DNA of 16,003 bases, taken from contig JASJBO010000175.1 in assembly GCA_030066475.1 (NCBI GenBank), positions 1 through 16,003 of the forward strand, given 5' to 3'. Shown piece by piece: positions 1,457 through 16,003 of this stretch. This DNA comes from Myxococcota bacterium (lineage in GTDB: Bacteria; Myxococcota_A; UBA9160; PR03). Every line of letters starts with the position of its first letter. Position 1 is the first letter of the stretch. Below the pieces are notes generated by a model. That model searched no databases and was not told the DNA's origin. It worked only from the letters and a program-made list of their open reading frames with translations. The translations under genes and the position numbers were made by a program.

Positions 1457-1467
1457 GGGACCTCCTT

Positions 1468-1483
1468 CGTCGTGTCCACGACG
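1468..1483. promoter_or_regulatory. Perfect 7-2-7 inverted repeat next to the monooxygenase ribosome binding site
   Basis: The bases CGTCGTG-TC-CACGACG form a perfect inverted repeat with 7-bp arms. It directly abuts the Shine-Dalgarno of the - strand monooxygenase (1461-1467). It could be a second operator in this divergent region, or an mRNA hairpin next to the ribosome binding site. The arms are seen in the sequence; the role is inferred. Confidence 0.5.
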
Positions 1484-1492
1484 CGCCTCGGC

Positions 1493-1499
1493 TATCGTA
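1493..1499. promoter_or_regulatory. Overlapping back-to-back -10-like boxes of the divergent monooxygenase/P450 pair
   Basis: On the + strand TATCGT (1493-1498) fits the TAnnnT pattern of a -10 box and would drive the P450. On the - strand TACGAT (1499-1494) matches four of six bases of TATAAT and would drive the monooxygenase. No convincing -35 box was found at either standard spacing, so these are candidates only. Confidence 0.35.
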
Positions 1500-1520
1500 C
1501 CGCGCCAGTCAGCGCTCAGG

Positions 1521-1536
1521 CCGACCGATCGGTCGG
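1521..1536. promoter_or_regulatory. Perfect 16-bp palindrome, likely operator of a TetR-type regulator
   Basis: CCGACCGATCGGTCGG is an uninterrupted perfect palindrome. It lies between the divergent genes, about 23 bases downstream of the + strand -10 candidate (near the expected transcript start) and at about -35 of the - strand candidate. It is therefore placed where one bound dimer could control both genes. Palindromes built on GACCGnnCGGTC are typical of TetR-family operators; that is family knowledge, and no regulator gene lies in the window. Confidence 0.55.
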
Positions 1537-1555
1537 ACGAAGGACTCCTCAAGTC

Positions 1556-2905
1556 ATGAGCCAGGCCGTCGCCGATTCGCCGCCGTCCGACTCGCGCCCG
1601 CGTCGGATTCCCGTCGTCCACCCCCTCGAGCTGGTGTCGCAGCTGCAGCGCTTCCGCATGCACACGCTCGACGTGACCCGGACGCTCTACGAGCGCTACG
1701 GCCCGGTGGCGCTGCAGGAGTTCGGGATCTGGAAGCAGGTCCACCTCTTCGGCCCCGAAGCGAACCGCATGCTGCTGCTCGACCGCGACGGCAACCTGTC
1801 CGCACAGCGCTCCTGGAATCGGATCATGGGGCGCATCTTCTCGAACGGCCTGCTGCTGCGCGACGGCGACGACCACCGGCACCACCGCAACACGATGCGC
1901 CCGGCGTTCCGCAGGCCGGCGCTGCGAACCTACGGCGAGCGCATGAATCCCGCGGTCGCGAGCGCGCTCGACGGCTGGCGCGACCACACCGACGGCTTCC
2001 AGGCCTTTCCCGCCTTCAAGCAGCTCACGCTCGATCTGGCCTGCACGATCTTCCTGGGCATCGAGCTGGGGCCCGCCGCCGCCCGGCTGAACCGCGCTTT
2101 CGAGGACACCGTGGCCGCGTCGATGTCGGTGCTGCGCCTCCCGCTGCCGGGGCTCGAGTTCAACCGCGGCCTCCAGGGGCGCAAGTGGATGCTCGAGTAC
2201 TTCGGCGGCCTGCTGGCGGAGAAGCGCGGCGGCGAGGGCGACGACCTGTTCAGCCGCCTGTGCCGGGCCGAGAGCGAGGACGGCCGCCGCTTCAGCGACA
2301 CGGAGATCCTCGACCACCTGATCTTCACCATGATGGCGGCGCACGACACCACCACCAGCACGCTCACCTCGCTCGTCTACGAGCTGGCGAAGCACCCCGA
2401 GTGGCAGGAGCGCGTGCGCGAGGAGTCGCTCGACCTCGGCGGCGACGGACTCGCCTTCGACGACATGCCCCGCCTGCAGGCGCTGAATCTGTGCCTCCAG
2501 GAGACGCTGCGGCGCTACCCGCCGCTCTCCACCATCCCGCGCGTGGCGACGCGCAGCTTCCTCTGGGACGGCTACCAGATTCCCGCCGACGCCATGGTCG
2601 TGATCTACCCGCTGCACACGCACCACATGCCGGAGTGGTGGAGCGCCCCGTTCGAGTTCGACCCGGAGCGCTTCGCCGAGCCGCGCGCCGAGCACCGGCG
2701 CCACACCCACTCCTATCTCCCGTTCGGCGGCGGCGAGCACATGTGCCTGGGCCTGCGCTTCGCCGAGCTCCAGATCCGCATCGTGCTCTTCCACCTCACC
2801 CGCCGCTTCCGCTGGAGCGTCCCCCCCGACTACCGCATGCCCGTCCAGCAGGCCCCCATCTCCAAGCCCACGGACGGCCTGCCCCTCCACCTCGCCCCGC
2901 TGTAG
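1556..2905 (+). CDS. Cytochrome P450
   Basis: A 449-residue protein, the usual length of a soluble bacterial P450. It is a haem-thiolate monooxygenase that would need an external ferredoxin and reductase, neither of which is in the window. All three diagnostic motifs are present: I-helix oxygen-binding AHDTT (residues 262-266), K-helix ExxR as ETLR (316-319) followed by RYPP, and the haem-binding loop FGGGEHMCLG with axial ligand Cys397. No membrane anchor is seen at the N-terminus. The start is ATG 1556 with AAGGA at 1540-1544, an eleven-base spacing that is slightly long. The gene is divergent from the FAD monooxygenase and shares its palindromic control region, which suggests co-regulation, perhaps on one hydrophobic substrate. 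The CYP family and substrate cannot be assigned by eye. Confidence 0.95.
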   Translation: MSQAVADSPPSDSRPRRIPVVHPLELVSQLQRFRMHTLDVTRTLYERYGPVALQEFGIWKQVHLFGPEANRMLLLDRDGNLSAQRSWNRIMGRIFSNGLLLRDGDDHRHHRNTMRPAFRRPALRTYGERMNPAVASALDGWRDHTDGFQAFPAFKQLTLDLACTIFLGIELGPAAARLNRAFEDTVAASMSVLRLPLPGLEFNRGLQGRKWMLEYFGGLLAEKRGGEGDDLFSRLCRAESEDGRRFSDTEILDHLIFTMMAAHDTTTSTLTSLVYELAKHPEWQERVREESLDLGGDGLAFDDMPRLQALNLCLQETLRRYPPLSTIPRVATRSFLWDGYQIPADAMVVIYPLHTHHMPEWWSAPFEFDPERFAEPRAEHRRHTHSYLPFGGGEHMCLGLRFAELQIRIVLFHLTRRFRWSVPPDYRMPVQQAPISKPTDGLPLHLAPL

Positions 2906-2921
2906 GGGGCCGCGGTTGCGA

Positions 2922-2927
2922 TATGCT
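2922..2927 (+). promoter_or_regulatory. Possible -10 box (TATGCT) for the LLM oxidoreductase gene
   Basis: TATGCT fits TAnnnT and lies 29 bases before the start codon, just after the P450 stop. No -35 box is recognisable. Read-through from the P450 gene, which ends 51 bases before the next start, is an alternative. Confidence 0.25.
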
Positions 2928-2956
2928 GCCTGCTCGTTGGGCCTGGAGGGAGCGCG

Positions 2957-3841
2957 ATGGCGACGGAGCTGGGGCGGCTGGGTGTGTGGACGTGGCTGGA
3001 CGGGATGGCGCCCGCGGACGCGGCGGCGTTCGTGCGCGATCTCGAGGGGTGGGGGTACTCGGCGCTCTGGCTGCCGGAGGCGGTGGGGCGCGATCCCTTC
3101 GCGACGATCGCGTGGCTGGGCGCGCACAGCGAGCGGATCGTGTTCGCCACGGGGATCGCCAACATCTACGCGCGCGACCCGATGACGACGAACGCAGTCG
3201 CCCGCACCGTGGCCGAGCTGACCGGCGGACGCTTCGTGCTCGGGCTCGGCGTCTCGCACTCGCACCTGGTGACCGGCGTGCGCGGCCACGAGTACAAGAA
3301 GCCGCTCTCGACGATGCGCGCCTATCTCGAGGCGATGGAGAAGGCGCTGTTCCGCGCGGCCGAGACGCAGGAGCCGCCGCCCGTCGTGCTCGCCGCGCTG
3401 CGACCGCGCATGCTGGCGTTGGCCGCCGAGCGCGCCGCCGGTGCGCATCCCTACTTCGTGACGCCCGAGCATACGGCGCGCGCGCGCGAGGTGCTGGGCG
3501 CCGGCAAGATCCTCGCGCCCGAGCAGAAGGTGCTGCTCGAGACCGACCCGACCCAGGCGCGCGCCGTCGCGCGCGCGGCCATGAAGATCTACGCCGGGCT
3601 TCCGAACTACCAGAACAACCTGCGCTGGCTGGGCTTCGACGAGAGCGACTTCGCGGGCGACTGCTCCGACAAGCTGGTGGACGCCATCGTGGCCTGGGGC
3701 GACGAGGACGCCATCCGCCGCCGCATCCAGGAGCACTACGACGCGGGCGCCGACCACGTGTGCATCCAGCCGCTGCATCCGGAGGGTGCTCCCGTCCCAC
3801 ACCGCGAGCTGCTCGCGCTGCTCGCCCCCGCCCGGAGCTAG
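2957..3841 (+). CDS. LLM-class, F420-type flavin oxidoreductase
   Basis: A 294-residue luciferase-like TIM-barrel protein resembling the F420-dependent branch often labelled TIGR03620. Such enzymes move hydride between F420 (or FMN) and a substrate. Visible family signatures are the N-terminal GVWTWLDGM strand, the GYSALWLPEAVGRDPF segment (barrel strand 2 region), ATGIANIYARDP, and the glycine-rich GGRFVLGLGVSH. The C-terminal half contains the usual GDEDAIRRRIQEHYDAGADHV region. The start is ATG 2957 with a strong GGAGGGAG at 2945-2952. The stop is followed after four bases by the start of the AGPS-like gene, so the two are probably co-translated. Whether the cofactor is F420 or FMN cannot be told; F420 would require cofactor synthesis genes elsewhere. 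Confidence 0.88.
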   Translation: MATELGRLGVWTWLDGMAPADAAAFVRDLEGWGYSALWLPEAVGRDPFATIAWLGAHSERIVFATGIANIYARDPMTTNAVARTVAELTGGRFVLGLGVSHSHLVTGVRGHEYKKPLSTMRAYLEAMEKALFRAAETQEPPPVVLAALRPRMLALAAERAAGAHPYFVTPEHTARAREVLGAGKILAPEQKVLLETDPTQARAVARAAMKIYAGLPNYQNNLRWLGFDESDFAGDCSDKLVDAIVAWGDEDAIRRRIQEHYDAGADHVCIQPLHPEGAPVPHRELLALLAPARS

Positions 3842-3845
3842 GCGC

Positions 3846-5459
3846 TTGGGGACGCGGCGCCGCAAGTTCTGGGGCTGGGGCTGGGAGGACGGCGGCCCCG
3901 ACGCGGAGCAGGAGGCCGGCATCCTGCGCACACTGGCCGCGCGCTTCGACGAGCCGCTCGAGCCGATCGCCCCGCCGCGCGTGGACGAGATCCCGCTGGC
4001 CGCGCCGCGCGTGGCGCCGCCGGCGAGCCTCGCGGAGATCGTCACGGCCGACCCCCACGAGCGTCTGGGCCACGCCATGGGCAAGGGCTACCGCGACGTG
4101 GTGCGCGCGCTGCGCCGCCGCTTCGACCACGTGCCCGACCAGGTCGCCTTCCCGCGCGACGAGTCCGAGGTGACCGCCGTGCTCGACTGGTGCAGCGACG
4201 CGCGCATCGCCATCGTCCCCTACGGCGGTGGCTCGAGCGTGGTGGGCGGCGTCGAGCCCGCCGTGGGCGACGCCTACGCCGGCGCCGTCTCGCTCGACCT
4301 CGGGCGCCTCGACCAGATCCTCGAGATCGACCGCACCTCGCGCGCCGCGCGCATCCAGGCCGGCATCCTGGGCCCTGCGCTCGAGGACGCGCTGCGCCCC
4401 GAAGGCCTGACCCTGCGCCACTTCCCGCAGTCGTTCGAGTTCTCGACCCTGGGCGGCTGGATCGCCACGCGCTCGGGCGGCCACTACGCCACGCTCTACA
4501 CCCACATCGACGACTTCGTCGAGTCGACGCGCAGCGTGACCCCGACCGGCGTGCTCGAGACGCGGCGCCTCCCGGGCAGCGGCGCCGGCTCGAGCCCCGA
4601 CCGGCTGATGATCGGCTCGGAGGGCATCCTGGGCGTGATCACCGAGGCGTGGATGCGACTGCAGGACCGCCCGCGCTTCCGCGCGTCGGCCGCCGTGCGC
4701 TTCCCGGGCGACGACGGCTTCGCACGCGGCGCCGAGGCCGTGCGGCGGCTGTCGCAGTCGGGTCTGTTCCCGTCCAACTGCCGACTGCTCGACGCCCGCG
4801 AGGCGGGCCAGGCCGGCGCCGGCTCGGGCGACGAGACCGTGCTGCTCGTCGCGTTCGAGTCGGCCGACCACCTGCTCGACGCCTGGATGGCGCGCGCACT
4901 CGAGCTGGCGGCCGACGCGGGTGGCCTGCTGCCCGAGGGCGGCGCCCGGACGAGCGAGGGCGGCAGCGGCGCGCGCGACGGCGCCGCCGGCGCCTGGCGC
5001 AGCGCCTTCGTCAACGCCCCCTACCTGCGCGACCTCGTGGCGCGCGCCTCGGGTGTCTCCGAGACCTTCGAGACCGCGATCCCGTGGGACCGCTTCGCCG
5101 ACTTCCACGCCGGCGTAATGGAGCGAGTCGGCGACGCCATCGAGCGCGTGTGCGGTACGGGCACCCTCGCCTGCCGCTTCACCCACGTCTACCCCGACGG
5201 GCCGGCGCCCTACTACACGATCATGGCGCCCGGCCGCCGCGGCTCCGAGCTCGAGCAGTGGGACGAGCTGAAGGCCGCCGCGATGGAGGCCGTCGTCGGC
5301 CTCGGCGGCACCATCACGCACCACCACGCGGTGGGCCGCGACCACCGCCCCGGCTACGACCGGCAGCGCCCCGACGCCTTCGCCCGCGCGCTGCGCGCCG
5401 CCAAGCACGAGCTCGACCCGGCCGGCGTGCTCAACCCCGGCGTCCTGATCGACCCGTAG
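3846..5459 (+). CDS. FAD-binding oxidase, alkylglycerone-phosphate synthase (AGPS)-like
   Basis: A 537-residue VAO/PCMH-type flavoprotein. AGPS exchanges the acyl group of acyl-dihydroxyacetone phosphate for a fatty alcohol, making the ether bond of ether lipids. Signatures are the N-terminal KFWGWGWED (AGPS proteins often start with a W-GWG segment), the FAD loop [11 protein letters not shown] (residues 125-135), the [20 protein letters not shown] region, and the C-terminal triple histidine [11 protein letters not shown] (HHH 492-494), a conserved active-site feature of AGPS. The tail [11 protein letters not shown] is typical of the family. TTG 3846 is chosen because GGAG at 3834-3837 is spaced eight bases away and homologues begin near the RRKFWGWG segment; an ATG at 3786 would lie inside the previous gene. 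No DHAP acyltransferase or fatty alcohol enzyme is nearby, so the ether-lipid role is inferred. Confidence 0.88.
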
Positions 5460-5465
5460 CGCCTC

Positions 5466-5474
5466 TGCTAGCTT
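5466..5474 (+). promoter_or_regulatory. Extended -10 promoter element immediately upstream of dapL
   Basis: TGCTAGCTT fits the extended -10 pattern TGnTAnnnT. It ends only seven bases before the ATG at 5482, and no Shine-Dalgarno is present. Transcription from it would begin at or next to the start codon, giving a leaderless or nearly leaderless mRNA. No clear -35 box is seen, as is usual for extended -10 promoters. Confidence 0.45.
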
Positions 5475-5481
5475 GCGCGCC

Positions 5482-6711
5482 ATGGCACGCATCAACGAGC
5501 ACTACCAGAAGCTGGCCGCCGGCTACCTGTTCCCCGAGATCGGCCGCCGCACGCGCGCCTTCGCCGAGGCGAACCCCGACGCCGCGATCATCCGGCTCGG
5601 GATCGGCGACGTGACCCTGCCGCTGGCGCCGGCCATCGTCGACGCCATGCGCCGCGCCGCCGAGGAGATGGGCACGCCCGACGGCGTGCACGGCTACGCG
5701 CCCGACCAGGGCTACGAGTTCCTGCTCGACGCGATCCGCGAGCACGACTTCGCGACTCGCGGCGTCGAGCTGTCGCGCGACGAGATCTTCGTGTCGGACG
5801 GCAGCAAGCAGGACAGCGGGAACATCCAGGAGATCTTCGGCGCCGACTGCCGCGTGGCCGTGACCGACCCGGTCTACCCCGTCTACGTCGACACCAACGT
5901 GATGGCGGGCCGCACGGGCGGGGCCGGTGCCGAGGGCCACTACGAGGGCATCCTCTACCTGCCCGCCACCGAGGCGAACGGCTTCGCACCAGGCCCGCCC
6001 GACCAGGCCGTGGAGCTGGCCTACCTGTGCTCGCCCAACAACCCCACCGGCACGGTGGCGCCGCGCGAGACGCTGGCGCAGTGGGTCGCCTGGGCGCGCG
6101 ACTGCGGCGCGGTGCTGATCTACGACGCCGCCTACGACGCCTTCATCCAGGACCCCGCCCTGCCCCGCTCGATCTACGAGATCGACGGCGCCCGCGAGTG
6201 CGCCATCGAGATGCGCAGCTTCTCGAAGCGCGCCGGCTTCACCGGCGTGCGCTGCGCCTACACCGTGGTGCCGGGCGAGCTGCACGGGACCACGGCCGCC
6301 GGCGAGCGGGTCCCGATCCGCGCGCTCTGGGCGCGCCGCCAGGCCACCAAGTTCAACGGCGTGCCCTACATCGTGCAGCGCGGCGCCGAGGCCGTCTACT
6401 CGCCCGAGGGCCGCAAGCAGACCGCCGAGCAGATCGCCTACTACATGGAGAACGCGCGCCGCCTGCGCGAGGGCCTGGGCGGCGCCGGCTTCACCGTCTT
6501 CGGCGGCGAGCACGCGCCCTACATCTGGCTGCGCACGCCCGAGGGGCTGGGCTCGTGGGACTTCTTCGACGCGCTGCTCGAGAAGACCCACGTGGTCGGC
6601 ACGCCGGGCGCCGGCTTCGGCCCGGCCGGCGAGGGCTACTTCCGGCTCTCGGCGTTCAACTCGCGCGAGAACGTCGACGAGGCGATCGGGCGGATCAGCG
6701 GGGCGTTCTGA
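5482..6711 (+). CDS. dapL: LL-diaminopimelate aminotransferase
   Basis: A 409-residue PLP enzyme, matching the usual DapL length of about 410. It converts tetrahydrodipicolinate directly to LL-diaminopimelate with glutamate, bypassing the succinylase or acetylase steps of lysine and peptidoglycan precursor synthesis. The N-terminus [20 protein letters not shown] is the characteristic DapL opening. [35 protein letters not shown] and the PLP lysine in [12 protein letters not shown] (Lys249) are all visible. The ATG at 5482 is preferred over an upstream in-frame TTG at 5473, because that TTG lies within the -10 element. The gene follows the AGPS-like gene by 22 bases but appears to have its own promoter. 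Presence of DapL is widespread in deltaproteobacteria, Bacteroidetes, chlamydiae and plants (established knowledge). Confidence 0.96.
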
Positions 6712-6776
6712 GCCGCAGGCGGGGCGCGCCCGAGGCCGGACTTCAGCAACCCGCCGCACCCGCCGATCGGGGAGGG

Positions 6777-8195
6777 ATGAGCGGGCTCCGCATGACCAAG
6801 ATCGTCGCGACGATCGGCCCCGCGTGCGACGCGCCCGAGACGCTGCGCCTCATGGTCGAGGCGGGCATGAACGTGGCGCGCCTCAATCTCTCGCACGGAA
6901 GCCACGACGACCACGCCCGCCGCATCGACCGCATCCGCAGCGCGGCGGACGCGCTCGGGGCCAACGTGGCGATCATGGCCGACACGCGGGGGATGGAGAT
7001 TCGCACCGGCGGGCTCGCGGGCGGCGCCGTGGAGCTGCGGCCCGAGGAGCCCTTCCGACTCTACGCCGACCCGCGCGACGGCGGGCCCGACGGGGTCTCG
7101 GTGTCCCATCCGGGTTTGCCCAAAGAGGTCTCGCCGGGCAGCCGGGTGCTGCTCGACGACGGGGCGATCGAGCTCCTGGTGGTCGAGGTGAAGCCGGAGA
7201 CGGTGGTGTGCCGGGTGGTGCGCGGCGGCCGGCTCGAGAGCCGGCGCGGCGTGAACCTGCCCGACGACGCCATCCAGCGCCACGGGCTCGACGAGGCCGA
7301 CCGCGCCGACCTGCTGTTCGCCGCCGGGCACGGAGCGGACTACGTGGCTGCGTCGTTCGTGCAGAACGCCGGCGACGTGCGCGCGATCCAGGCGCTGCTC
7401 GAGGACGCCGCCGCGCCCATCCCCGTGATCGCGAAGATCGAGAACCGCGAGGGGCAGCGGAACCTCGACTCGATCGTCGCCGTGGCGGCGGGCACGATGG
7501 TGGCGCGCGGCGACCTCGGCGTGGAGATCCCGGCCGAGGAGGTGCCGCTGGTCCAGAAGCGGATCATCCACACCACGGTCGCGAGCGGCCGCCCGGTCAT
7601 CACGGCCACGCAGATGCTGAGCTCGATGGAGCAGCGCGAGCGGCCGACGCGCGCCGAGGTGAGCGACGTGGCCAACGCCATCCTCGACGGCACCTCGGCG
7701 CTGATGCTCTCGGGCGAGACGGCCGTGGGCCGCTTCCCGGTCGAGGCGGTGCGCACGATGGCGCGCATCGCCGAGCGCACCGAGGCGTCGCTCGACGACT
7801 ACGGACACCTCCAGCGCATCGAGCCCGAGCCCTCCAACGTGATGACCGAGTCGGCGAGCCAGGCGGCGATCACCATGGCCCACCACCTGGGTGCGGCGGC
7901 GATCGTCGCGCTCACCGAGTCGGGCTTCACGCCGCGCTCCATCTCCAAGCACCGCCCCCGCTGCCCCATCCTGGCCGTGACGCCCGCGGCCTGGGTGGTG
8001 CGCGCCCTGGCGATCAACTGGGGCGTGAAGGCGCTCCACTACGAAGGCGAGCGCTGCGACGAGGCGATGATCGCCTTCGCTCTCGACTGGCTGCGCTCGC
8101 AGGGCCACGCGCGCGCCGGCGACGTCGTCGTCGCCACCACCGGCGTCTCCAGCGAGCCGGGCACGACGAACCGGATCTCCGTCGTCCCGGTCTGA
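6777..8195 (+). CDS. pyk: Pyruvate kinase
   Basis: A 472-residue protein of full length (E. coli PykF is 470). It converts phosphoenolpyruvate and ADP to pyruvate and ATP in the cytoplasm. Motifs are KIVATIGPA at the N-terminus, NVARLNLSHG, the catalytic lysine in IAKIENREG (Lys220), the Mg-binding VARGDLGVEIPAEEV, ITATQMLSSM, and DGTSALMLSGETAVGRFP. The normally LDTKGPEIR segment reads ADTRGMEIR (residues 68-76). The glutamate that marks K+-dependent enzymes is kept (Glu74), but the usual Lys and Pro are Arg and Met. The ATG at 6777 sits almost touching GGGGAGGG (6769-6776); an in-frame ATG at 6792 begins right at MTKIVATIGPA, but with a long spacing. The start is therefore uncertain by five codons. 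Confidence 0.96.
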   Translation: MSGLRMTKIVATIGPACDAPETLRLMVEAGMNVARLNLSHGSHDDHARRIDRIRSAADALGANVAIMADTRGMEIRTGGLAGGAVELRPEEPFRLYADPRDGGPDGVSVSHPGLPKEVSPGSRVLLDDGAIELLVVEVKPETVVCRVVRGGRLESRRGVNLPDDAIQRHGLDEADRADLLFAAGHGADYVAASFVQNAGDVRAIQALLEDAAAPIPVIAKIENREGQRNLDSIVAVAAGTMVARGDLGVEIPAEEVPLVQKRIIHTTVASGRPVITATQMLSSMEQRERPTRAEVSDVANAILDGTSALMLSGETAVGRFPVEAVRTMARIAERTEASLDDYGHLQRIEPEPSNVMTESASQAAITMAHHLGAAAIVALTESGFTPRSISKHRPRCPILAVTPAAWVVRALAINWGVKALHYEGERCDEAMIAFALDWLRSQGHARAGDVVVATTGVSSEPGTTNRISVVPV

Positions 8196-8244
8196 CCGGG
8201 CCCGTGCGCATCGCGCGGCGCGACGACGCCACGGCGCCGCCGCC

Positions 8245-8259
8245 GGGGCGGATTGCCCC
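8245..8259 (+). terminator. Short GC hairpin after pyruvate kinase
   Basis: GGGGC (8245-8249) and GCCCC (8255-8259) pair around a five-base loop, 50 bases after the pyruvate kinase stop. No T tract follows, so an intrinsic terminator is doubtful. The rest of the 175-base gap (8196-8370) shows no gene and no clear promoter. Confidence 0.25.
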
Positions 8260-8370
8260 AGTCGCGCCGCCAGCGCCCACTCGGCCCCGCCCGCGCGGCA
8301 GCCGTGGCCGTCTCCCGGGCACGGGCATTGCACCGGCCTGGAGCGGGGGTCGCTTCGGGGAGAGCGAGAC

Positions 8371-9168
8371 ATGGGCGAACGACTGCGCGACAAGGTGGCG
8401 ATCGTGGTGGGCGCGGGCTCTACGCCCGGCGAGACCCTCGGGAACGGTCGGGCCACGGCGATCCTGTTCGCGCGCGAGGGCGCGCGCGTGCTCGCCGTGG
8501 ATCGCGACGAGGGGTCGGCCGCCGAGACCGTGGAGCGGATCCGGACGGAGGGCGGCGAGGCGTCGGTTTTTGGCGCCGACGTCACGCAGGGCGAGGACTG
8601 CCGGCGCATGGTCGACCGCTGCGTCGAGCAGTACGGACGCATCGACGTGCTGCACAACAACGTGGGGATCGGCGACCTGGGCGGGCCGGTCGAGCTGACC
8701 GAAGCGCAGTGGGAGCACGTGATGGCGACCAACCTGAAGAGCATGTTCCTCGCCTGCAAGCACGCGCTGCCGCCGATGGAGGCGCAGGGCGGGGGCGCGA
8801 TCATCAACATCTCGTCGCTCGCCGCCGTGCGCTTCGCGCCCTACCCGATGCTCTCCTACAGCGCCTCGAAGGCCGCGGTGAACGCGCTGACCCGCTCGAT
8901 CGCGATGCAGTACGCGGCGCGCGGGATCCGCGCCAACGCGATCATGCCCGGCCTGATCGAGACCCCGATGGCGATGGAGGGGATCTCGGCGCGGCTCGGG
9001 ATCGGCAAGCCCGAGCTGAAGCGCATGCGCGAGCAGGCGGTGCCGATGCAGCGCATGGGCGAGGCCTGGGACGTGGCCCACGCGGCCGTCTACCTGGCGT
9101 CGGACGAGGCGCAGTACGTCACCGGTGTGGTGCTGCCGGTCGACGGCGGGCTGGCGCTCAAGGGATGA
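8371..9168 (+). CDS. Short-chain dehydrogenase/reductase (SDR)
   Basis: A 265-residue classical SDR that would oxidise an alcohol or reduce a ketone with NAD(P). The coenzyme loop reads VGAGSTPGETLGNGRA (about residues 13-28), an extended form of the usual TGxxxGxG found in one SDR subgroup. An acidic residue after the second strand (AVDRD) suggests NAD preference, an inference. HNNVGIG corresponds to the NNAG motif, INISSLAA carries the catalytic serine (Ser148/149), and YSASK provides Tyr163 and Lys167. The C-terminus YVTGVVLPVDGG is standard. The start is ATG 8371 with GGGGAGAG at 8357-8364. The stop overlaps the patatin start (ATGA), indicating a translationally coupled operon. Confidence 0.94.
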   Translation: MGERLRDKVAIVVGAGSTPGETLGNGRATAILFAREGARVLAVDRDEGSAAETVERIRTEGGEASVFGADVTQGEDCRRMVDRCVEQYGRIDVLHNNVGIGDLGGPVELTEAQWEHVMATNLKSMFLACKHALPPMEAQGGGAIINISSLAAVRFAPYPMLSYSASKAAVNALTRSIAMQYAARGIRANAIMPGLIETPMAMEGISARLGIGKPELKRMREQAVPMQRMGEAWDVAHAAVYLASDEAQYVTGVVLPVDGGLALKG

Positions 9169-10211
9169 GCCCGCGCGGACCGGCGATCGGGCTCGTGCTC
9201 GGCGGCGGCGGGGTGATCGGCAACGCCTATCTCACCGGCGTCCTGGAGGCGGTGCGCCAGGTCTCCGGCTGGGACCCCGGCCGGGCGCGCATCACGGTCG
9301 GCACCTCGGCGGGCTCGGTGAACGGCGCGCTCTCGGCCCTCGGCGTGCCGTGCGCGCTGATGTACCGCTACCTGTGTCGCGGGCTCGCCGACGACCCCGA
9401 GCCGGTCGACCCGGACGGTCCCGCCGCGCGCTTCCAACGGCACCCGGACCGCGAGTGGATGCGCCGCCTCTACCCGCGTACCGGCGTGCTGCCGCGCCCG
9501 CTGCTGTCGAGCCCGGCGGCCGTGCTGCGCGCCCTGCTGCGTCCGGACCGCACCTCGCTCGACCTGTTCGTGGCGGGGCTGATCGGCGAAGGGCTCATCT
9601 CGACACGCACCATCGGGGAGGTGATCGAGAGCGTCCAGCCCCGCGGCTGGCCCGAACGGGAGTTCTGGGCCGTCGCCGTCGACCTCGAGCGCGGCCGCCG
9701 CGTGGCGCTGGGCCGCGACGATGCACCGCGGACCGACGTGGCCCGAGCGGTGCGGGCGTCTTGCGCGATCCCCGCCTTCTTCGCCCCGGTGCGCATCGAA
9801 GGGCGCCGCTACGTCGACGGCGGCGTGTGGAGCGTCTCCAACCTCGACCTGCTGGCGGGGCAGGGCCTCGACCTGGTGGTGTGCGTGAATCCGATGTCGA
9901 CGCTCGAGGGCCGCTCCTACGAGGGTCCCGTCGACCGCTTCACGGGCGCCGTCCACGCGCTCGAGAGCCGCACCTGGCGCCGCTTCGGCCGGCGCCTCGG
10001 CTGGGAGCGCCGCCGCGTCGAGCAGAGCGGAACCCCCGTGCTCCTGGTCCAGCCGACCGCGGCCGACCTCGAGGTCATCCCGACCAACCTGATGAACCCC
10101 CGCCGTCGCCAAGCGGTCGCCGAGCGCGCGTTCGAGACCACCGTGGCGGGGCTGGAGACGCGCTTCGACTGGCGGCCCAGCCTGCGCGTGCTCGAGGCCG
10201 CGGCCGGCTGA
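9165..10211 (+). CDS. Patatin-like phospholipase / serine acyl hydrolase
   Basis: A 348-residue protein with the patatin fold. It would hydrolyse lipid acyl esters by a Ser-Asp dyad. The oxyanion-hole glycine run GLVLGGGGVIG (residues 9-19), the nucleophile elbow GTSAGS (Ser48) and the dyad aspartate in YVDGGVWS (Asp218) are all visible and correctly ordered. No signal peptide is seen, so it is probably cytoplasmic or membrane-associated. The ATG overlaps the SDR stop by four bases, with AAGGG directly before it. The pairing with an SDR suggests lipid or polyester turnover, but the substrate is unknown. The C-terminal region is arginine-rich (about residues 270-285). Confidence 0.93.
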   Translation: MSPRGPAIGLVLGGGGVIGNAYLTGVLEAVRQVSGWDPGRARITVGTSAGSVNGALSALGVPCALMYRYLCRGLADDPEPVDPDGPAARFQRHPDREWMRRLYPRTGVLPRPLLSSPAAVLRALLRPDRTSLDLFVAGLIGEGLISTRTIGEVIESVQPRGWPEREFWAVAVDLERGRRVALGRDDAPRTDVARAVRASCAIPAFFAPVRIEGRRYVDGGVWSVSNLDLLAGQGLDLVVCVNPMSTLEGRSYEGPVDRFTGAVHALESRTWRRFGRRLGWERRRVEQSGTPVLLVQPTAADLEVIPTNLMNPRRRQAVAERAFETTVAGLETRFDWRPSLRVLEAAAG

Positions 10212-10249
10212 ACGCCGTCCATCGGCTCTCGCCCGCCCCGAAGCCAGGC

Positions 10250-10303
10250 GCTCTTCTTCCGTCACTCGCCCCTCCTCGCGGCCGCAGCCGACCCGCGAAG
10301 AGC
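10250..10303. terminator. Spaced inverted repeat between convergent genes
   Basis: GCTCTTC (10250-10256) and GAAGAGC (10297-10303) are inverted and separated by 40 bases, within the 98-base gap between the convergent patatin and methyltransferase genes. The location suits a bidirectional terminator, but the stem is short, the loop long and there is no T run. Confidence 0.22.
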
Positions 10304-10309
10304 AGCCAA

Positions 10310-11068
10310 TCAGGCTCGTCGCGCCACCACGAACACATAGCCGTAGCAGTCCGCGTGCGTGCGATAGGTCTCGATCTCGGTGCGCGCGCCCGCGACCACC
10401 GCGGCGGCTGCCGGGTCGCCCGCGTAGCGCCGTTCGATCAGGGGGATGCGCTGCTCCAGCGGCGTGTAGTACTGCCGCCACCACGACGACTCGGGCAGCA
10501 CGAAGTGACCGACGACGTCGTAGCCGGCGCGCGCGACCAGCGCGAGCACGCCGTCCACGTCGAGGAGCTCGAGTCCCTCGTCGGCCCAGCAGCGTTCCAC
10601 CTCCGCCGGCAGCTCGTCGCGGAGCCGGCAGGCCTCGGTCAACGCGAGGTAGCCGGGATCGCGCAGCAGGGCGCGCCAGGCGGTGCAGGCGGCCTCGGTC
10701 CCCATCTGGTAGGCGGCGCCTTCGCTCCAGACCAGATCGAAGCGAGCGTCGGGCAGGGGCAGCGCCGCCATGTCCGCCTGCACGGGCTCGATGCGATCGG
10801 CGAGGCCTGCTTCGGCGGCGGCGGCGCGCAGGCGCCCGAGAAAGGGCCGGTAGTCGTCGAGGCCGATCACGCGGGCGCCGCGCCGCGCGAGCACCAGGGT
10901 CTGGCGGCCGGGCCCGCAGCCCACGTCGAGCGCGCGCGGTGCCGCGACCAGCTCCTCGCACAGGCCTAGCGCGCGCTCGGTCGACTCGTCGTCACCCGGA
11001 CCGGCGCGCGGCAGCCAGGCGTAGAGGTCGTAGAAGATCTCGCGGAAGCGCGGGTCGTCGAAGCCCAT
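10310..11068 (-). CDS. SAM-dependent class I methyltransferase
   Basis: A 252-residue protein with a Rossmann-like methyltransferase core. Motif I is DVGCGPG (residues 48-54), followed by the acidic end of strand 2 in VIGLDDY, the motif II-like region RIEPVQADMAALPLPDARFDLVW (broken here only by variable residues), and SEGAAYQMG. The C-terminal part contains an aromatic segment, SSWWRQYYTPLEQRI, probably part of the substrate pocket. Such proteins methylate small molecules; the substrate cannot be named. The ATG at 11068 is chosen because MGFDDPRFREIFYDLY matches how these proteins begin; the frame stays open upstream into low-complexity antisense sequence. No strong Shine-Dalgarno is seen. 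The gene is divergent from the vWA gene across a 151-base region with an inverted repeat. Confidence 0.88.
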   Translation of the reverse strand: MGFDDPRFREIFYDLYAWLPRAGPGDDESTERALGLCEELVAAPRALDVGCGPGRQTLVLARRGARVIGLDDYRPFLGRLRAAAAEAGLADRIEPVQADMAALPLPDARFDLVWSEGAAYQMGTEAACTAWRALLRDPGYLALTEACRLRDELPAEVERCWADEGLELLDVDGVLALVARAGYDVVGHFVLPESSWWRQYYTPLEQRIPLIERRYAGDPAAAAVVAGARTEIETYRTHADCYGYVFVVARRA

Positions 11069-11087
11069 GAGAGCCCGGCCTGCATAC

Positions 11088-11121
11088 CACACCGGGACCG
11101 GAACGGATCCGATCCGGTGTG
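11088..11121. promoter_or_regulatory. 8-bp inverted repeat with inner palindrome in a divergent promoter region
   Basis: CACACCGG (11088-11095) and CCGGTGTG (11114-11121) are perfect inverted arms separated by 18 bases. Inside is CGGATC-C-GATCCG (11104-11116), a second inverted repeat. The cluster lies 20 bases from the methyltransferase start and about 100 bases before the vWA start. It may be an operator pair or an RNA hairpin in the methyltransferase leader; no -10 box is convincing nearby. Confidence 0.4.
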
Positions 11122-11219
11122 CCGGCTTCGATTCCCCAACGGGCTCGACCAGTTCCGCGCTCGGATTCAAGCCGCTGAGGCGTCCCGCCGATCCCTCTCC
11201 ACCAGGGGGAGAACGTCCG

Positions 11220-13340
11220 ATGTCCGCTTCCGCCTTCCGACCCGTGCTGCTGGCCGTGCTGGCGGCCCTGCTGGCGCCGTCGCTCGAGGCCGTCGCCGAT
11301 TCCGGCGAGCTGCGCGTGGAGATCCACGAGCCGGCGCCCGGCAGCGTGATCGGCCGCGTCGACGAGCCCGTCACCGTGGTGGGCGGCGCCTCGATCTTCG
11401 GCGGCGTGAAGCAGCTCGACCTGTTCCTCGTGATCGACACCTCGAAGAGCCTGAACACGACCGACCCCCGGGACTACCGCGTCCGCGGCGCGACGGCGCT
11501 GGTACGCCGCCTGCCCTTGCGCAGCGACATCCAGCTCGGCGTGGTCGACGTGGACGGCGACGCGGAGCTGGTGCAGGGCCTCACGAAGGACCGCGACCAG
11601 GTGGTGCTGGCGCTCAAGCGCCTCGACCGCCGCGGCTCCACGGACCTGGCCGAGGGCATCCAGGTCGCGCTCGCCGGCTTCGAGTCCGGCGCGCGATCGG
11701 GCTCGTCGCGGGTGATCCTGCTCTTCACGGACGGGCGCTCGAACGAGAAGGCGGCGCTACGGGCGATGGCCGCGGCGCGCGACCGCGGTATCGCGATCCA
11801 CACGCTGCTGCTGGGCCGGGACGACGACGGCGAGGAGCTGCTCCAGACCATCGCGAGCGAGACCGGCGGCAGCTTCGTGCAGGTGACGGACCCGGCGAAG
11901 CTGCCCGAGGCGTTCCTGAGCCTGCGCACGACGGGCGTCGACCAGGTCACGATCGCGGTGAACGGCGGCCTGCCCTACGCCGCGCAGCTGGCCGGCGGCA
12001 CGTTCACCGGGAGCGTGCCGCTCGTGCCGGGCAGGAACGAGATCGTGGCCACCGCGCGGAGCCTGACGGGCCAGGTGCGCGAGGCGCGCACCGAGGTGAT
12101 GGTCTCCGACGAGCTCGCGGTCCGGATCGACGCGCCGCTCGACGGCGCCCTCTTCAGGCGCGACGTGAGCGAGACCGAGGTCAGCGGCGTCGCGACGCTG
12201 TTCGAAGGCATGGCGAGCGACGCCCTCCCGGCCGACCGCGGGGTGGCGAGCGTGGTGCTGCGGGTCGGGGACGCGGCGCCGGTCGCGGCGGCCCTCTCCG
12301 CGGGCCGCTTCGTCGGCCGGGTGCCGCTCGAGCGCGGCGAGAACCTCGTGGTGGCCGTCGCCACCTCGGTCGACGGCCGGGTGGCCGAGGCCCTGGCCAC
12401 CGTGACGGTCCAGCCGCCGGGGTGCGCGGAGCTCACCGTGGAGGCTCGGCGGGACGGCGCGCCCGCGCTGTCGCTCTCGGACCGCGGCGTCGAGATCGTG
12501 TTCGACGCCTCGAACAGCATGTGGGCGCAGATCGACGGGCGCTCGAAGATGGAGATCGCCAAGGAGACGCTGGAGCAGACGCTCGACGCGCTGCCCGACG
12601 ATCTGGGCGTGGCGCTGCGCGTCTACGGCCACCGCCACAGGCGCGAGGAGCGCAACTGCAGCGACTCGGAGCTGCTGGTGTCGTTCGACGACGACGGACG
12701 CGCGGCGGTCCGCGCGGCGATCGCCGGCGTGAAGCCGCGCGGGCAGACTCCGCTCGGCTACTCGCTCGAGCAGGTGGCGGCCGACTTCGGCGACTTCCCC
12801 GGCGAGCGCGCCGTGGTGCTCGTCACCGACGGCCTCGAGAGCTGCGGCGGCGACCCGGCGGCGGCGGCGGCGGCGCTCCAGCGCGACGCGCGGATGCCGG
12901 TGCACGTGATCAGCTTCGGCCTCGGCAGCGCCGACGACGAGGACGTGGCCAGCCTGCGCGCGATCGCCGCCGCCTCGGGCGGGCGCTTCCTGGCGGCGGG
13001 CAACGCGGACGAGCTGCGTGCGGCGCTCTCCGAGACCGTGGGCACACCGTTCGAGGTCTCGCGCGACGGCGCCCCGGTCGCGCGCGGCACCCTCGGCGCC
13101 GACGATCGCTTCCGGCTCCCGGAGGGCGAGTACCTCGTCACCTTCCAGAGCCAGCCCGAGCGCCGCGTGCCGGTGCGGCTGACCTCCGAGGAGGCACTCG
13201 CCCTCGTCGTCGAGCGCGAGGGCGACGGCGTCTCGCGCCGCGACCGGCGCACGCCGGCCGAGTACCACGTGTGCGCCTCGGCGGAGGTCGCGGCAGACGA
13301 GCCGGACGACCCGGCGCTGCCCGCCAGCCCCGCGCGCTAG
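11220..13340 (+). CDS. Secreted protein with two von Willebrand factor A domains and Ig-like segments
   Basis: A 706-residue protein with a signal peptide (hydrophobic VLLAVLAALLAP, likely cleavage AVA|DS after residue 26). vWA domain 1 (about 67-240) has a full metal-ion site: DTSKS (Asp73), GSTD, and FTDGRS (Asp171). vWA domain 2 (about 423-600) also has one: DASNS (Asp429), GQTPLGYS, VTDGLES. Between them is a beta-sandwich resembling glucodextranase-B/bacterial Ig domains (about 300-400). Half of a similar domain lies on each side of vWA 1. The C-terminus has a LPEGEYLVTF carboxypeptidase-regulatory or PEGA-like segment. Such proteins bind ligands or partners in the periplasm or at the surface in a metal-dependent way. 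The ATG at 11220 has GGGGGAG (11205-11211) eight bases before it; the frame is open further upstream but lacks a signal peptide there. Confidence 0.9.
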   Translation: MSASAFRPVLLAVLAALLAPSLEAVADSGELRVEIHEPAPGSVIGRVDEPVTVVGGASIFGGVKQLDLFLVIDTSKSLNTTDPRDYRVRGATALVRRLPLRSDIQLGVVDVDGDAELVQGLTKDRDQVVLALKRLDRRGSTDLAEGIQVALAGFESGARSGSSRVILLFTDGRSNEKAALRAMAAARDRGIAIHTLLLGRDDDGEELLQTIASETGGSFVQVTDPAKLPEAFLSLRTTGVDQVTIAVNGGLPYAAQLAGGTFTGSVPLVPGRNEIVATARSLTGQVREARTEVMVSDELAVRIDAPLDGALFRRDVSETEVSGVATLFEGMASDALPADRGVASVVLRVGDAAPVAAALSAGRFVGRVPLERGENLVVAVATSVDGRVAEALATVTVQPPGCAELTVEARRDGAPALSLSDRGVEIVFDASNSMWAQIDGRSKMEIAKETLEQTLDALPDDLGVALRVYGHRHRREERNCSDSELLVSFDDDGRAAVRAAIAGVKPRGQTPLGYSLEQVAADFGDFPGERAVVLVTDGLESCGGDPAAAAAALQRDARMPVHVISFGLGSADDEDVASLRAIAAASGGRFLAAGNADELRAALSETVGTPFEVSRDGAPVARGTLGADDRFRLPEGEYLVTFQSQPERRVPVRLTSEEALALVVEREGDGVSRRDRRTPAEYHVCASAEVAADEPDDPALPASPAR

Positions 13341-13346
13341 CAGTTC

Positions 13347-13376
13347 GACTTCGTTCGGCTTCGCCTCACTGCGCGC
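13347..13376 (+). repeat. Intergenic GACTTCG repeat related to the 101-bp tandem repeat
   Basis: This block begins six bases after the vWA stop codon. It matches the start of the tandem-repeat unit (read on the - strand from 245 down) at about 26 of 30 positions. In both cases the block starts within a few bases of a stop codon. It fills most of the 48-base gap between two convergent genes and is flanked by copies of GCGCTAGC. Confidence 0.6.
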
Positions 13377-13389
13377 GCCCTCCGGGCGC
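13375..13389. terminator. Compact GC hairpin between convergent genes
   Basis: GCGCCC (13375-13380) and GGGCGC (13384-13389) form a perfect 6-bp stem with loop TCC, placed between the convergent vWA and lipoprotein stops. It could end transcription in both directions, but it lacks a T tract. Confidence 0.4.
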
Positions 13390-13982
13390 TAGCGAACGGC
13401 GGCGATGGAGAGCGCCACGAGCTCGTCGGCGATGCGGGCAGAGAGATCGCGGAAGGTGCGCTCCTTGACCTTCTCCACGTAGGTCTCGGGGTTCGCGAAG
13501 ATCGCGTGCGTCACGCGCGCCCGCGTCTCCACCCCGAACTCCCCCACCAGCCGATCGCCGTCGCGCAGCCGCACCAGGCACTCGGAGTCATAGGACTGGA
13601 AGTAGGGCACGATCGGCATCGGGACGAAGTAGAAGAAGCCGGTGATGGTGGCGCCGATGAACGCCCAGGTCACGGCCTCGTCGAAGTGGCCCACGGCCTC
13701 CACCTCGAGCACGACGGAGGGCGGATCGACCGGCTCGACCGGGTAGTGGATCTCGTCGAAGACGTCCTGGGCCAGCAGGGCCTCCCGCAGCACCTCGCCG
13801 AACGACCCGTTGCTCCAGTAGAAGCCCGCCTCGTTCACGCGCAGGAGCGCCGCCCCGCCGATCGAGCCGCTGCTCGACGGTTGGTAGCCGGAGGCTCCGG
13901 TCAGGAAGTGCCAGCAGCCGGTGTTCGCCAGCGCGAGCAGGCCGATCGCCGCGATCGTGAGCGTGCGCCGGGCGCGGATCAA
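13389..13982 (-). CDS. Predicted lipoprotein of unknown function (197 aa)
   Basis: A 197-residue protein with an N-terminal charged and hydrophobic segment ending in LANTGC. Cys23 is the likely lipidated residue, though Asn at -3 is unusual for a lipobox. A hydrophobic aromatic stretch around residues 103-128 (including AFIGATITGFFYFVPMPIVP) is inserted between predicted beta strands and may contact a membrane or partner. The overall pattern loosely resembles small periplasmic lipoproteins of the YajG/LptE sort; this is a weak impression, not an assignment. The start is TTG at 13982, supported by GAGGAGGAG just upstream and by overlap with the previous stop (TTGA). It is the last gene of a three-gene lipoprotein operon. 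Confidence 0.8.
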   Translation of the reverse strand: MIRARRTLTIAAIGLLALANTGCWHFLTGASGYQPSSSGSIGGAALLRVNEAGFYWSNGSFGEVLREALLAQDVFDEIHYPVEPVDPPSVVLEVEAVGHFDEAVTWAFIGATITGFFYFVPMPIVPYFQSYDSECLVRLRDGDRLVGEFGVETRARVTHAIFANPETYVEKVKERTFRDLSARIADELVALSIAAVR

Positions 13983-14140
13983 GGCTCCTCCTCGCCGCGC
14001 GGCACCGGCTCCGACTCCACCGTCCAGTCCAGATCGTTCCCGTCGCGGGCCTGCTCCGGAAGCGCGAGGAAACGGCGCGCGCAGCCGGTCGCGAGCAGGG
14101 CCAGCATCAGGATCAGCGCGATCGCGCGGCCGGACCTCAT
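13979..14140 (-). CDS. Small predicted lipoprotein (53 aa)
   Basis: A 53-residue protein that could be missed by length cut-offs. It starts with a typical lipoprotein signal (MRSGRAIALILMLALLATGC, Cys20), leaving a mature part of only 34 residues. The tail NDLDWTVESEPVPRGEEEP resembles the C-terminus of the protein encoded just upstream (DPIGWTIESSPALARI). Its ATG overlaps the upstream stop (ATGA) and its TGA overlaps the downstream TTG start, so all three genes are translationally coupled. That coupling and the intact signal argue it is real. Function unknown. Confidence 0.75.
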   Translation of the reverse strand: MRSGRAIALILMLALLATGCARRFLALPEQARDGNDLDWTVESEPVPRGEEEP

Positions 14141-14919
14141 CCGTCTGCGCTCCGGATCCGCGCCAGCGCGGGCGACGACTCGATCGTCCAGCCGATCGGA
14201 TCCGGCCGGCCCAACCAGGGGTAGCGGTTGAGCAGGGAGATCACGGCGGCGGTCATGTCGCGCACCGCCCGATCCGTCGCATCCTGCAGCACCGACTGAT
14301 AGGTCGCCGTGGCTCCGCCGAGCCGGGAGCGCGAGCTCTTCACGAAGAAGGTCCGGCGCGCCCGAAGGCCGCTCGGGGTCTCTACGAGGAGGTCGATCTG
14401 GACGTCGGATTCGAAGAAGACGAGCGCCATCTGCGGTGCGCCTTCGAGCTCCAACGAGCGGAAGGAGCCCGAGATCTCGACGATCTCGCCCGCGGCCGTC
14501 GCCTGCGGATCGACGACCGTGAAGCCGGCGTGCTCGAGCCCCTCGCCGAGCCGATGCGCCATCCAGAACAGCGGCGCCTCCGAGCAGCCGAGCTGGTTGC
14601 GGATCGGGGGCTTGCGGGTCCGGCGGCGGCCGGGGCCGTGCGTCCGGGGCGGAGGCGGCGCACAATCGGGCGGCGGCCGGTGGTCGGCGAACGGCGCGGC
14701 GACCCGGACGAGCCGCCCGTCTCCACCCTGGAAGTCGAAGACCGGGGGACCGCTGGGCGCCACCAGGCCGGTGGTGCCCGAGCAGCTCGCGAGCAGCAGC
14801 CCTGCGAGGAGCCCGCCGGCCACGAGCACCGCGGTGCGCCATGCCGCACGAAGCTCGACTCGAGAACGGTTCCGAAGGAAGGTCCGATGCCAGGTCCCAA
14901 TCCCGATCCGCGCTGCCAA
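14137..14919 (-). CDS. Predicted lipoprotein of unknown function (about 260 aa)
   Basis: The hydrophobic segment AVLVAGGLLAGLLLASC ends in a good lipobox (LASC), so the mature protein is probably anchored to a membrane by that cysteine (Cys46 with the chosen start). The mature part has a proline/arginine-rich linker, then a mixed domain with LFWMAHRLGEGLEHAGFTVV, ALVFFESDVQIDLLVET and a long helix ending in MTAAVISLLNRYPWLG, vaguely like YajG-type periplasmic lipoproteins. It ends in GWTIESSPALARI, a motif shared with the next gene. The start is uncertain: TTG 14919 has GAGGGG just upstream and fits a promoter at 14945-14973; GTG 14829 would give a shorter signal without positive charges. It is the first gene of the operon. 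Confidence 0.75.
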   Translation of the reverse strand: MAARIGIGTWHRTFLRNRSRVELRAAWRTAVLVAGGLLAGLLLASCSGTTGLVAPSGPPVFDFQGGDGRLVRVAAPFADHRPPPDCAPPPPRTHGPGRRRTRKPPIRNQLGCSEAPLFWMAHRLGEGLEHAGFTVVDPQATAAGEIVEISGSFRSLELEGAPQMALVFFESDVQIDLLVETPSGLRARRTFFVKSSRSRLGGATATYQSVLQDATDRAVRDMTAAVISLLNRYPWLGRPDPIGWTIESSPALARIRSADG

Positions 14920-14944
14920 CGCCCCTCGCTTCCGGCCCGCGCAC

Positions 14945-14973
14945 ACTCTGACCAGGAGCGGACGCGATGTCAA
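14945..14973 (-). promoter_or_regulatory. Sigma-70-type promoter for the lipoprotein operon
   Basis: Read on the - strand, a consensus TTGACA (14973-14968) is followed after exactly 17 bases by CAGAGT (14950-14945), which matches three of six -10 positions including the last T. Transcription would start near 14938, about 18 bases before the TTG chosen as start of the first lipoprotein gene. Confidence 0.45.
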
Positions 14974-14991
14974 GCATCGAGCCGCCTGGGC

Positions 14992-14997
14992 TACGCT
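14992..14997 (+). promoter_or_regulatory. Possible -10 box (TACGCT) for the selenoprotein gene
   Basis: TACGCT fits TAnnnT and ends 11 bases before ATG 15009, an arrangement like that in front of dapL. No -35 box is convincing. If correct, the mRNA has almost no leader and the true start is 15009, not 14967. Confidence 0.35.
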
Positions 14998-15008
14998 ACG
15001 TGCCCTCC

Positions 15009-16003
15009 ATGACGATCGAGCGTGACGAGTTCGGCTTCGACGCCCCGGTCCCGCTCGGCCATCCCGGCCGGCTGGGGCTCGAGCAGGGACACCCGACCGG
15101 ACCCGAGGTCGGCGAGCGACTGCCCGACTTCCACCTGCCCGACGCCTACGGCCGCGAGGTCGCGTTCCACGCCGACCGCGGCGACGCGAAGGCGGTCGTC
15201 GTCTTCTTCCGCTCCGCCGTCTGGTGACCGCCCTGCTGGACGCAGCTCGGTGAGCTGCGCGACGCCTGGCCGCGGTTCGAGGCCGAGGGCATCCGGGTGT
15301 ACGCCGTCTCGTACGACGACCGCGAGGCGCTTCGCGAGTTCGCGGACAGGCAGTCCATCCCCTTTCCCCTGCTCTCCGATCTCGGCAGCCGCGTGATCCG
15401 CGAGTACGGGATCCTGAACGACCGGATCGGCGAGGACGACGCGTTCCTCTACGGCATCCCGTACCCCGGTGTCTACGTCTGCGACGAGGACGGCGTGGTC
15501 GTCGCCAAGTTCTTCCACGACACCTACAAGAAGCGCGACAGCCCCGAGACGCTGCTCGATGCCGCCCTCGGTCGGATCTCGCTGGCGGCCCACGCGCCCC
15601 GGGTCACCGCCGAGGACCCCGAGGTGCGGATCACCGCGGCGATCCACGGCGGCGCCGGGACCGTGCGCCAGGGCATCATCCGCCGGCTCGTGGTCCGCTT
15701 CGAGCCGACCGACGGCCTGCACCTGTACGGGCGACCGGTGCCGGAGGGGATGATCCCGACCACGGTCACCGCCCGCGGACCGGACGGTCTCGTCTTCGGC
15801 GAGGCCGACTACCCGGCCACCGAGCCGCTGCGTCTTCCCGGTCTCGACGTCGAGCTGCCGGTCTGGAAGGGCGCCTTCGACGTGGTGATCCCGTTCCATC
15901 CGGACGGCCGGGTCGCCAGCGAGACGCGCCCGCTCGACCGGGATTCGCTCGAGATCGAGATCGACGTGCGCTACCAGGCCTGCGACGACGAGACCTGCCT
16001 GCT
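15009..16003 (+). CDS. Selenocysteine-containing peroxiredoxin-like/DsbD-alpha fusion, read through TGA at 15225 (partial, runs off window)
   Basis: An AhpC/TSA-type redoxin domain (about residues 35-190: VGERLPDFHLPDAYG, VVVFFRSAVW, then U73-P-P-C76) is interrupted by TGA at 15225-15227. The frame stays open for another 258 codons to the window edge with clearly homologous redoxin sequence (GIRVYAVSYDD, IPFPLLSDLGSRVIREYGI). The TGA replaces the first Cys of a WCPPC motif, and a SECIS-like hairpin follows. A second domain (about 205 onward) resembles DsbD-alpha, with GLHLYG, PEGMIPTTV and the cysteine pair YQACDDETC (Cys325, Cys330). It would be a thiol:disulphide oxidoreductase or peroxidase. 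No signal peptide is seen. ATG 15009 is preferred to ATG 14967, which has AGGAG at 14954-14958, because the 14 extra codons include TCA, CCT and CTA, rare in this window. Confidence 0.85.
15225..15227 (+). other. In-frame TGA read as selenocysteine
   Basis: The codon lies between TGG and CCG CCC TGC, so the motif is W-U-P-P-C. Position, intact downstream homology and the hairpin that follows support recoding over termination. Confidence 0.85.
15241..15259 (+). promoter_or_regulatory. Bacterial SECIS-like hairpin
   Basis: Bases 15241-15248 (CGCAGCTC) pair perfectly with 15252-15259 (GAGCTGCG), closing a three-base loop GGT (GGU in RNA). The first loop guanine is 22 bases after the TGA. Bacterial SECIS elements sit just downstream of the UGA within the coding region and need a G in the first two loop positions, which this satisfies (established knowledge of SelB recognition). 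Confidence 0.8.

Follow-up and report, generated by a model that had tools for sequence, protein, structure and literature searches.

Selenoproteins of the peroxiredoxin-like (Prx-like) thiol:disulfide oxidoreductase kind (PF00578), with a UxxC active site, are described in the available text of PMC13188914 and PMC2398784, among them 'Prx-like 1' of the Global Ocean Sampling survey. Table lines in PMC13188914 add a 'Redoxin family protein' of PF08534 with a UxxC site (HEU0032618.1) and TsoB (NF045694), a rhodanese/DsbD fusion-like selenoprotein. The N-terminal domain of DsbD (nDsbD) is, according to the accessible part of PMC3961690, the only known oxidoreductase with an immunoglobulin (Ig) fold, a periplasmic hub that donates electrons to Dsb and Ccm proteins. 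The accessible part of PMC5403849 describes the Caulobacter chain ScsB - TlpA - PprX, in which a membrane electron transporter feeds a peroxiredoxin via a thioredoxin-like protein. Here we analyse a gene at the end of a 16,003-nucleotide stretch of Myxococcota DNA (contig JASJBO010000175.1, positions 1 to 16,003; the window) that probably encodes, judging from its sequence, a cytosolic selenoprotein fusion carrying two redox pairs, a selenocysteine (Sec, U) redoxin being followed by a DsbD-alpha-like domain. Its features are as follows.

15009 to 16003, + strand: selenoprotein gene, Sec redoxin plus DsbD-alpha-like domain, as a read-through frame; the 3' part lies beyond the window end.
15108 to 15506, + strand: redoxin (AhpC/TSA) domain, Pfam PF00578 match, residues 48-180 of the open reading frame (ORF) from 14967; Bcp/AhpE/ResA fold in the closest relative, L001.
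15225 to 15227, + strand: TGA read as selenocysteine, residue 73 from ATG 15009, motif W-U-P-P-C; TGA in 35/35 sequences, Cys in some homologues.
15234 to 15236, + strand: Cys codon TGC, the U-x-x-C partner, present in 44/44 sequences of the window's type.
15241 to 15259, + strand: putative selenocysteine insertion sequence (SECIS) hairpin, 8-bp stem 15241-15248/15252-15259, loop GGU 15249-15251; from its fold, codon conservation, pair changes and loss in Cys forms.
15681 to 15998, + strand: DsbD-alpha-like domain, Pfam PF11412 match, residues 239-344 of the ORF from 14967, its end beyond the window; nDsbD/ScsB fold in L001.
15981 to 15983, + strand: first Cys of the CxxxxC pair, residue 325 from ATG 15009.
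15996 to 15998, + strand: second Cys of the CxxxxC pair, residue 330 from ATG 15009.

The TGA at 15225-15227 is in frame with ATG 15009, occupies the first position of U-P-P-C and is followed by 258 open codons up to the window end, as the initial annotation had it. The open frame itself is little evidence, because at 73% G+C the opposite strand of the same stretch is open too, for 336 codons. The start is better anchored: a motif common to most relatives, M-T/S-x-E-R-D-x-x-G-F-D-A-P, begins at the same place as ATG 15009, in agreement with the start proposed earlier. Complete relatives of the window's type are 382-438 residues long and stop 50-110 residues, typically near 80, past the window edge.

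Of the 41 loci returned by a genome scan, 34 have a match that covers the Sec site, and five of these are closely related marine loci. The Sec-site codon was TGA in all 35 sequences (the window and the 34 spanning loci). In an even sample of 188 genomes from the phylum to which the closest relative's genome belongs, 17 matched at E 1e-20 or better, in 21 places, and every one of the 21 carried exactly one TGA, always at the Sec site. Many copies of the gene terminate at TGA, which speaks against TGA as an ordinary sense codon. Among the findings that the initial annotation had named as overturning it, one, that all homologues end at the TGA, is not the case; another, a TGC or TGG misread as TGA, does not fit a codon that recurs in 35/35 and is no one-off reading. 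The homology it saw across the TGA was recovered by Pfam, with AhpC-TSA spanning the codon and DsbD_N following it.

Protein lists presented a different picture of the family. We examined the 120 protein homologues listed out of 683, the window's own entry included; 119 of them lack the Sec site and begin downstream of the TGA, so that the 'two broken genes' anticipated from standard annotation are instead one truncated gene. P0019 was the only one of the 120 with the active site, as Cys. Among all 234 proteins listed, four have the active site, two of them with Cys (P0019, WCPLC; P0121, WCPIC) and two with Ser (P0183, P0201). Acidobacteriota supplied further forms: 29 of 149 genomes matched the distant relative L034, the 12 best-scoring places having TGA in 10 and Cys in 2, and three more places, chosen for the absence of a stop, had Cys as well. 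The distant Cys forms (L076, L081, L085-L087) carry TGT or TGC at the Sec position. We thus found an in-frame UGA that is conserved and aligned with Cys in homologues, the pattern by which bacterial selenoproteins are recognized, and the Cys homologues that the initial annotation had hoped for are P0019, P0121 and these five loci.

Further observations concern the wider family. Two distant loci have an extra stop inside the match, a second TGA in L078 and a TAA in L079. Genome G168 holds three diverged copies (L068, L069, L072) with one TGA each, and L071 is a relative consisting of the redoxin part alone, in which the same Sec site follows a hydrophobic signal-like start. In L010 (526-978) and L014 (2666-3124, minus strand) the family member has another redoxin-like match close by, interrupted in frame by a stop at a similar site (FRGHW*PYC). 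L001 (2692-2991, minus strand) has a weaker redoxin-like match, of 31% identity and with the stop within the site (LH*LPC).

The putative SECIS hairpin begins 13 nt after the TGA. The bacterial rules given in the available text of PMC13188914 ask for a loop of 3-9 nt with G in the first two places, an upper stem of 4-16 bp, a distance of 16-37 nt from the UGA and a minimum free energy of at most -7.5. With its GGU loop, 8-bp stem and UGA-to-loop spacing of 21 nt, the window hairpin agrees with these rules, and a 32-nt piece folds at -7.5 or below in all but one of 49 sequences (L005, at -7.4, is the exception). Rfam gave no match over 15150-15400 up to E 1. Conservation below the protein level points to the same element: in a synonymous-codon test of 40 sequences, stem codons took the top five ranks for over-conservation among 136 conserved codon columns (Thr+5, Leu+7, Arg+11, Glu+9 and Leu+10 from Sec). 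The stem was kept at 8/8 pairs in 35 of the 49 sequences, at 7 in 8 and at 6 in 6; one G-C pair became A-U by changes on both sides in five (L034, L063, L064, L066, L070), and at another pair C-G replaces G-C in L033. The third loop base varies, the loop codon being GGC in 15, GGT in 14, GGG in 2 and Val in 4 of 35 sequences. Among the distant loci, ten TGA forms (L073 being L033 again) retained 6-8 pairs at -9.9 to -14.9 kcal/mol, whereas five Cys forms retained 3-4 of 8 at -3.8 to -7.9 kcal/mol, a small contrast in which three of the five Cys forms had been picked for lack of a stop and in which Cys forms also differ from TGA forms in protein sequence at the stem. In these alignments the predicted hairpin accompanies TGA and not Cys.

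We looked for the selenocysteine machinery in the genomes of 29 of the 41 loci, all of them relatives of the window's source, and in 14 control genomes; L008 (the same isolate as L003), four of the five closely related marine loci and seven weak or partial matches were omitted. SelA was above cut-off in 26/29 relatives' genomes versus 1/14 controls, and SelB in 23/29 versus 2/14. Since the tRNA-Sec search cut-off of 47 is lax (5/14 controls pass), tRNA-Sec was counted at 67 bits or more, a line drawn after a gap down to 50.8 was seen, and on this count 25/29 genomes have it. SelA, SelB and tRNA-Sec occur together in 20/29. SelD was above cut-off in nine of the ten relatives' genomes tried, and in three genomes, that of L001 included, SelD itself carries a single in-frame TGA. 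Across the phylum sample, 112/188 genomes had SelA above cut-off; at 1e-20 it was found in 113/188, namely 16 of 17 carriers of the gene versus 97 of 171 others (Fisher p 0.003, uncorrected for kinship).

The redoxin part belongs to the AhpC-TSA family (PF00578), whose match runs across the TGA at 8.1e-32 and 110.2 bits (cut-off 26). U aligns with a Ser of Bcp (2cx3) and with the first Cys of ResA, and Cys+3 aligns with the Bcp Cys. We take that Bcp Cys to be the peroxidatic one. The Thr or Ser that stands three residues before the peroxidatic Cys in canonical TxxC peroxiredoxins was not found, and by this alignment the active site is of the U-x-x-C and not the T-x-x-C kind.

For the second half, the DsbD_N profile (PF11412) matched the window at 2.4e-06 and 28.0 bits and L001 at 39.2 bits (cut-off 25). 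Since the rows shown by Foldseek for the whole L001 model were redoxins of the Bcp/AhpE/ResA fold, we folded the C-terminal half of L001 alone, and this model resembles nDsbD/ScsB. A PDB profile search with the second half listed redoxins, owing to longer rows in its alignment, and is uninformative on DsbD-alpha. The cysteine pair that the initial annotation had noted at the end of the window is kept as C-x4-C in 44/44 sequences of the window's type, and in 20 of the 44, U, Cys+3 and this pair are the sole Sec/Cys set. Profile score, Ig fold (judged on L001) and cysteine pair are those of a DsbD N-terminal domain; taken with the relative's predicted fold, the sequence makes the C-terminal domain an nDsbD-like Ig-fold domain that retains C-x4-C.

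The rest of a DsbD protein is missing from relatives. The second half of L001 holds only DsbD_N and two helices, the 19-residue hydropathy maximum over the whole protein in relatives is 1.62, and complete relatives, which end soon after the window's cut edge, have neither the membrane domain nor the C-terminal thioredoxin domain of DsbD; the membrane domain that might have followed beyond 16003 is thus not there in them. L001 and its relatives have a C-terminal basic helical tail. A hydropathy test with the start placed 73 residues before Sec found no signal-peptide-like start and a hydrophilic first 45 residues in all 44 sequences, which bears out the lack of a signal peptide first noted in the window alone.

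Comparison among relatives establishes Sec, the putative SECIS, the two redox pairs and the two predicted folds, and the gene, despite its apparent internal stop, most likely specifies a single intact selenium-containing redox enzyme to which a second redox domain is attached. In the mechanism that we propose, SelB and the hairpin behind the UGA would insert selenocysteine at the first position of U-x-x-C in the AhpC/TSA-fold domain. A cytosolic dithiol donor such as thioredoxin would reduce the DsbD-alpha pair. This pair would in turn reduce the redoxin's Se-S bond, in the way that nDsbD acts on CcmG and DsbC, its partners, and the selenol could then reduce an oxidized substrate, which might be a peroxide or else a disulfide, low-molecular or in a protein. 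By analogy with these systems we infer an electron relay between the two pairs within one polypeptide, for which fused donor and acceptor would be the simplest reading. We consider it rather probable that the gene makes one cytosolic selenoprotein of ~410 residues, a Sec redoxin with its own attached DsbD-alpha-type reductase domain, relay included. For the stronger proposal the chances appear about even: that a family mostly recorded as truncated pieces is a cytosolic nDsbD-type Ig-fold reductase fused to its own Sec acceptor, the fusion acting as a selenol peroxidase or disulfide reductase that recycles itself, and so as a one-molecule counterpart of the DsbD-to-CcmG or ScsB-to-peroxiredoxin relay.

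Several observations weigh against this interpretation. The Sec position is Ser in P0183 (WSPGC) and P0201 (WSPPC); P0183 keeps the DsbD-alpha pair and P0201 has lost its second Cys. The window protein has one additional Cys, residue 158, and for this reason is not among the 20 sequences that have the two pairs only. The predicted structures are those of L001, standing in for the window-cut protein, and we know of no partner for a cytosolic DsbD-like relay. Both SelA and SelB fall below cut-off in G002, G012 and G027, SelB also in G004, G014 and G024, and tRNA-Sec is short in G003, G006, G011 and G024; genomes short of the machinery may be incomplete metagenome-assembled genomes (MAGs).

One alternative takes the UGA for a true stop, or for a mistake in sequencing or assembly, with a pseudogene or a separate gene downstream. 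This would suit gene callers, which treat it as a stop and leave the site out of 119/120 listed homologues, and would suit the only weakly unusual fold energy of the window stretch (z -1.76; 9/200 shuffles fold as well). We regard this as extremely improbable, and rejected it, given TGA in 35/35 sequences and at 21/21 sampled places, a protein conserved on both sides of it, a hairpin that goes with TGA forms and not with Cys forms, and Sec machinery in most of the relatives' genomes tested. More serious, and still unlikely, is a selenoprotein whose DsbD-alpha-like domain stands outside any relay, as a structural, partner-binding or metal-binding part, while thioredoxin reduces U-x-x-C directly. 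Ig-type folds other than nDsbD score little lower, the Ser form P0201 does without the second Cys of the pair, and the redoxin-only L071 has the same Sec site; what speaks for the relay instead is the invariance of C-x4-C in the 44 sequences and its standing, with U and Cys+3, as the sole Sec/Cys set in 20 of them. Export without a recognizable signal, for a periplasmic function like that of an ordinary DsbD-alpha partner, seems quite improbable. It would match the periplasmic place of DsbD-alpha in known systems (PMC3961690, available part) and the starts of the distant Acidobacteriota fusions L033, L034, L074 and L077, which look signal-peptide-like by eye, but not the hydrophilic starts of the window's own type or the absence of a membrane domain from complete relatives.

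Surroundings and relationships add context to the gene. In the tree the window groups weakly with L001 (89/41). The two fall within a supported five-row set (100/99), whose remaining rows are labelled Myxococcota or delta; the MAG titles of further members say Gammaproteobacteria, Alphaproteobacteria and Spirochaeta. No operon partner emerged from the top of the ORF-family list for the 35 loci, some of which have short flanks. ORF families common to at least four loci at like positions came nearly all from the five closely related marine loci, two further families, of five loci each, lie in scattered places, and another, of four loci, includes the sister loci L030 and L031. The window starts with a tandem repeat (1-251; period 101, 2.5 copies, 99% matches).

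We found no description of a Sec redoxin-DsbD-alpha fusion in the literature searched. No DsbD fusion is among those named in the section 9 text of PMC2398784, the fused 'Unknown' domains of its figure lying outside this comparison; a term search for DsbD found nothing within the available text of PMC12013277, PMC5029168 and PMC7539508; and among the matches listed for the window, L001, L034 and P0019, no NCBIfam family was over cut-off. The gene adds a two-domain selenoprotein family, present in 17/188 genomes of one phylum's even sample, of which protein lists show mostly the part downstream of the Sec codon.

Compared with the UxxC Prx-like selenoproteins, the window gene shares the AhpC/TSA domain and U as the first residue of UxxC, and differs in its DsbD-alpha-like domain, of which the available text of PMC13188914 and PMC2398784 makes no mention for them. 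TsoB, likewise a selenoprotein, also has a DsbD-like part; there the Sec motif reads UxxxxU and a rhodanese is the partner (table line of PMC13188914), whereas in the window protein Sec lies in the redoxin, the pair is a plain-Cys C-x4-C (CxxxxC) and a Pfam scan found no rhodanese. With nDsbD, whose partners are CcmG, DsbC and cDsbD, the domain shares the predicted fold (of L001) and the dithiol; nDsbD is a periplasmic part of a membrane protein (PMC3961690, available part), while the domain described here, without an export signal, is probably cytosolic and joined to its likely acceptor. Finally, ScsB, TlpA and PprX are three separate proteins of the cell envelope in the available account (PMC5403849), in contrast to the single Sec polypeptide of the window gene, whose two linked pairs put a trapped Sec-Cys intermediate within reach of a direct test.
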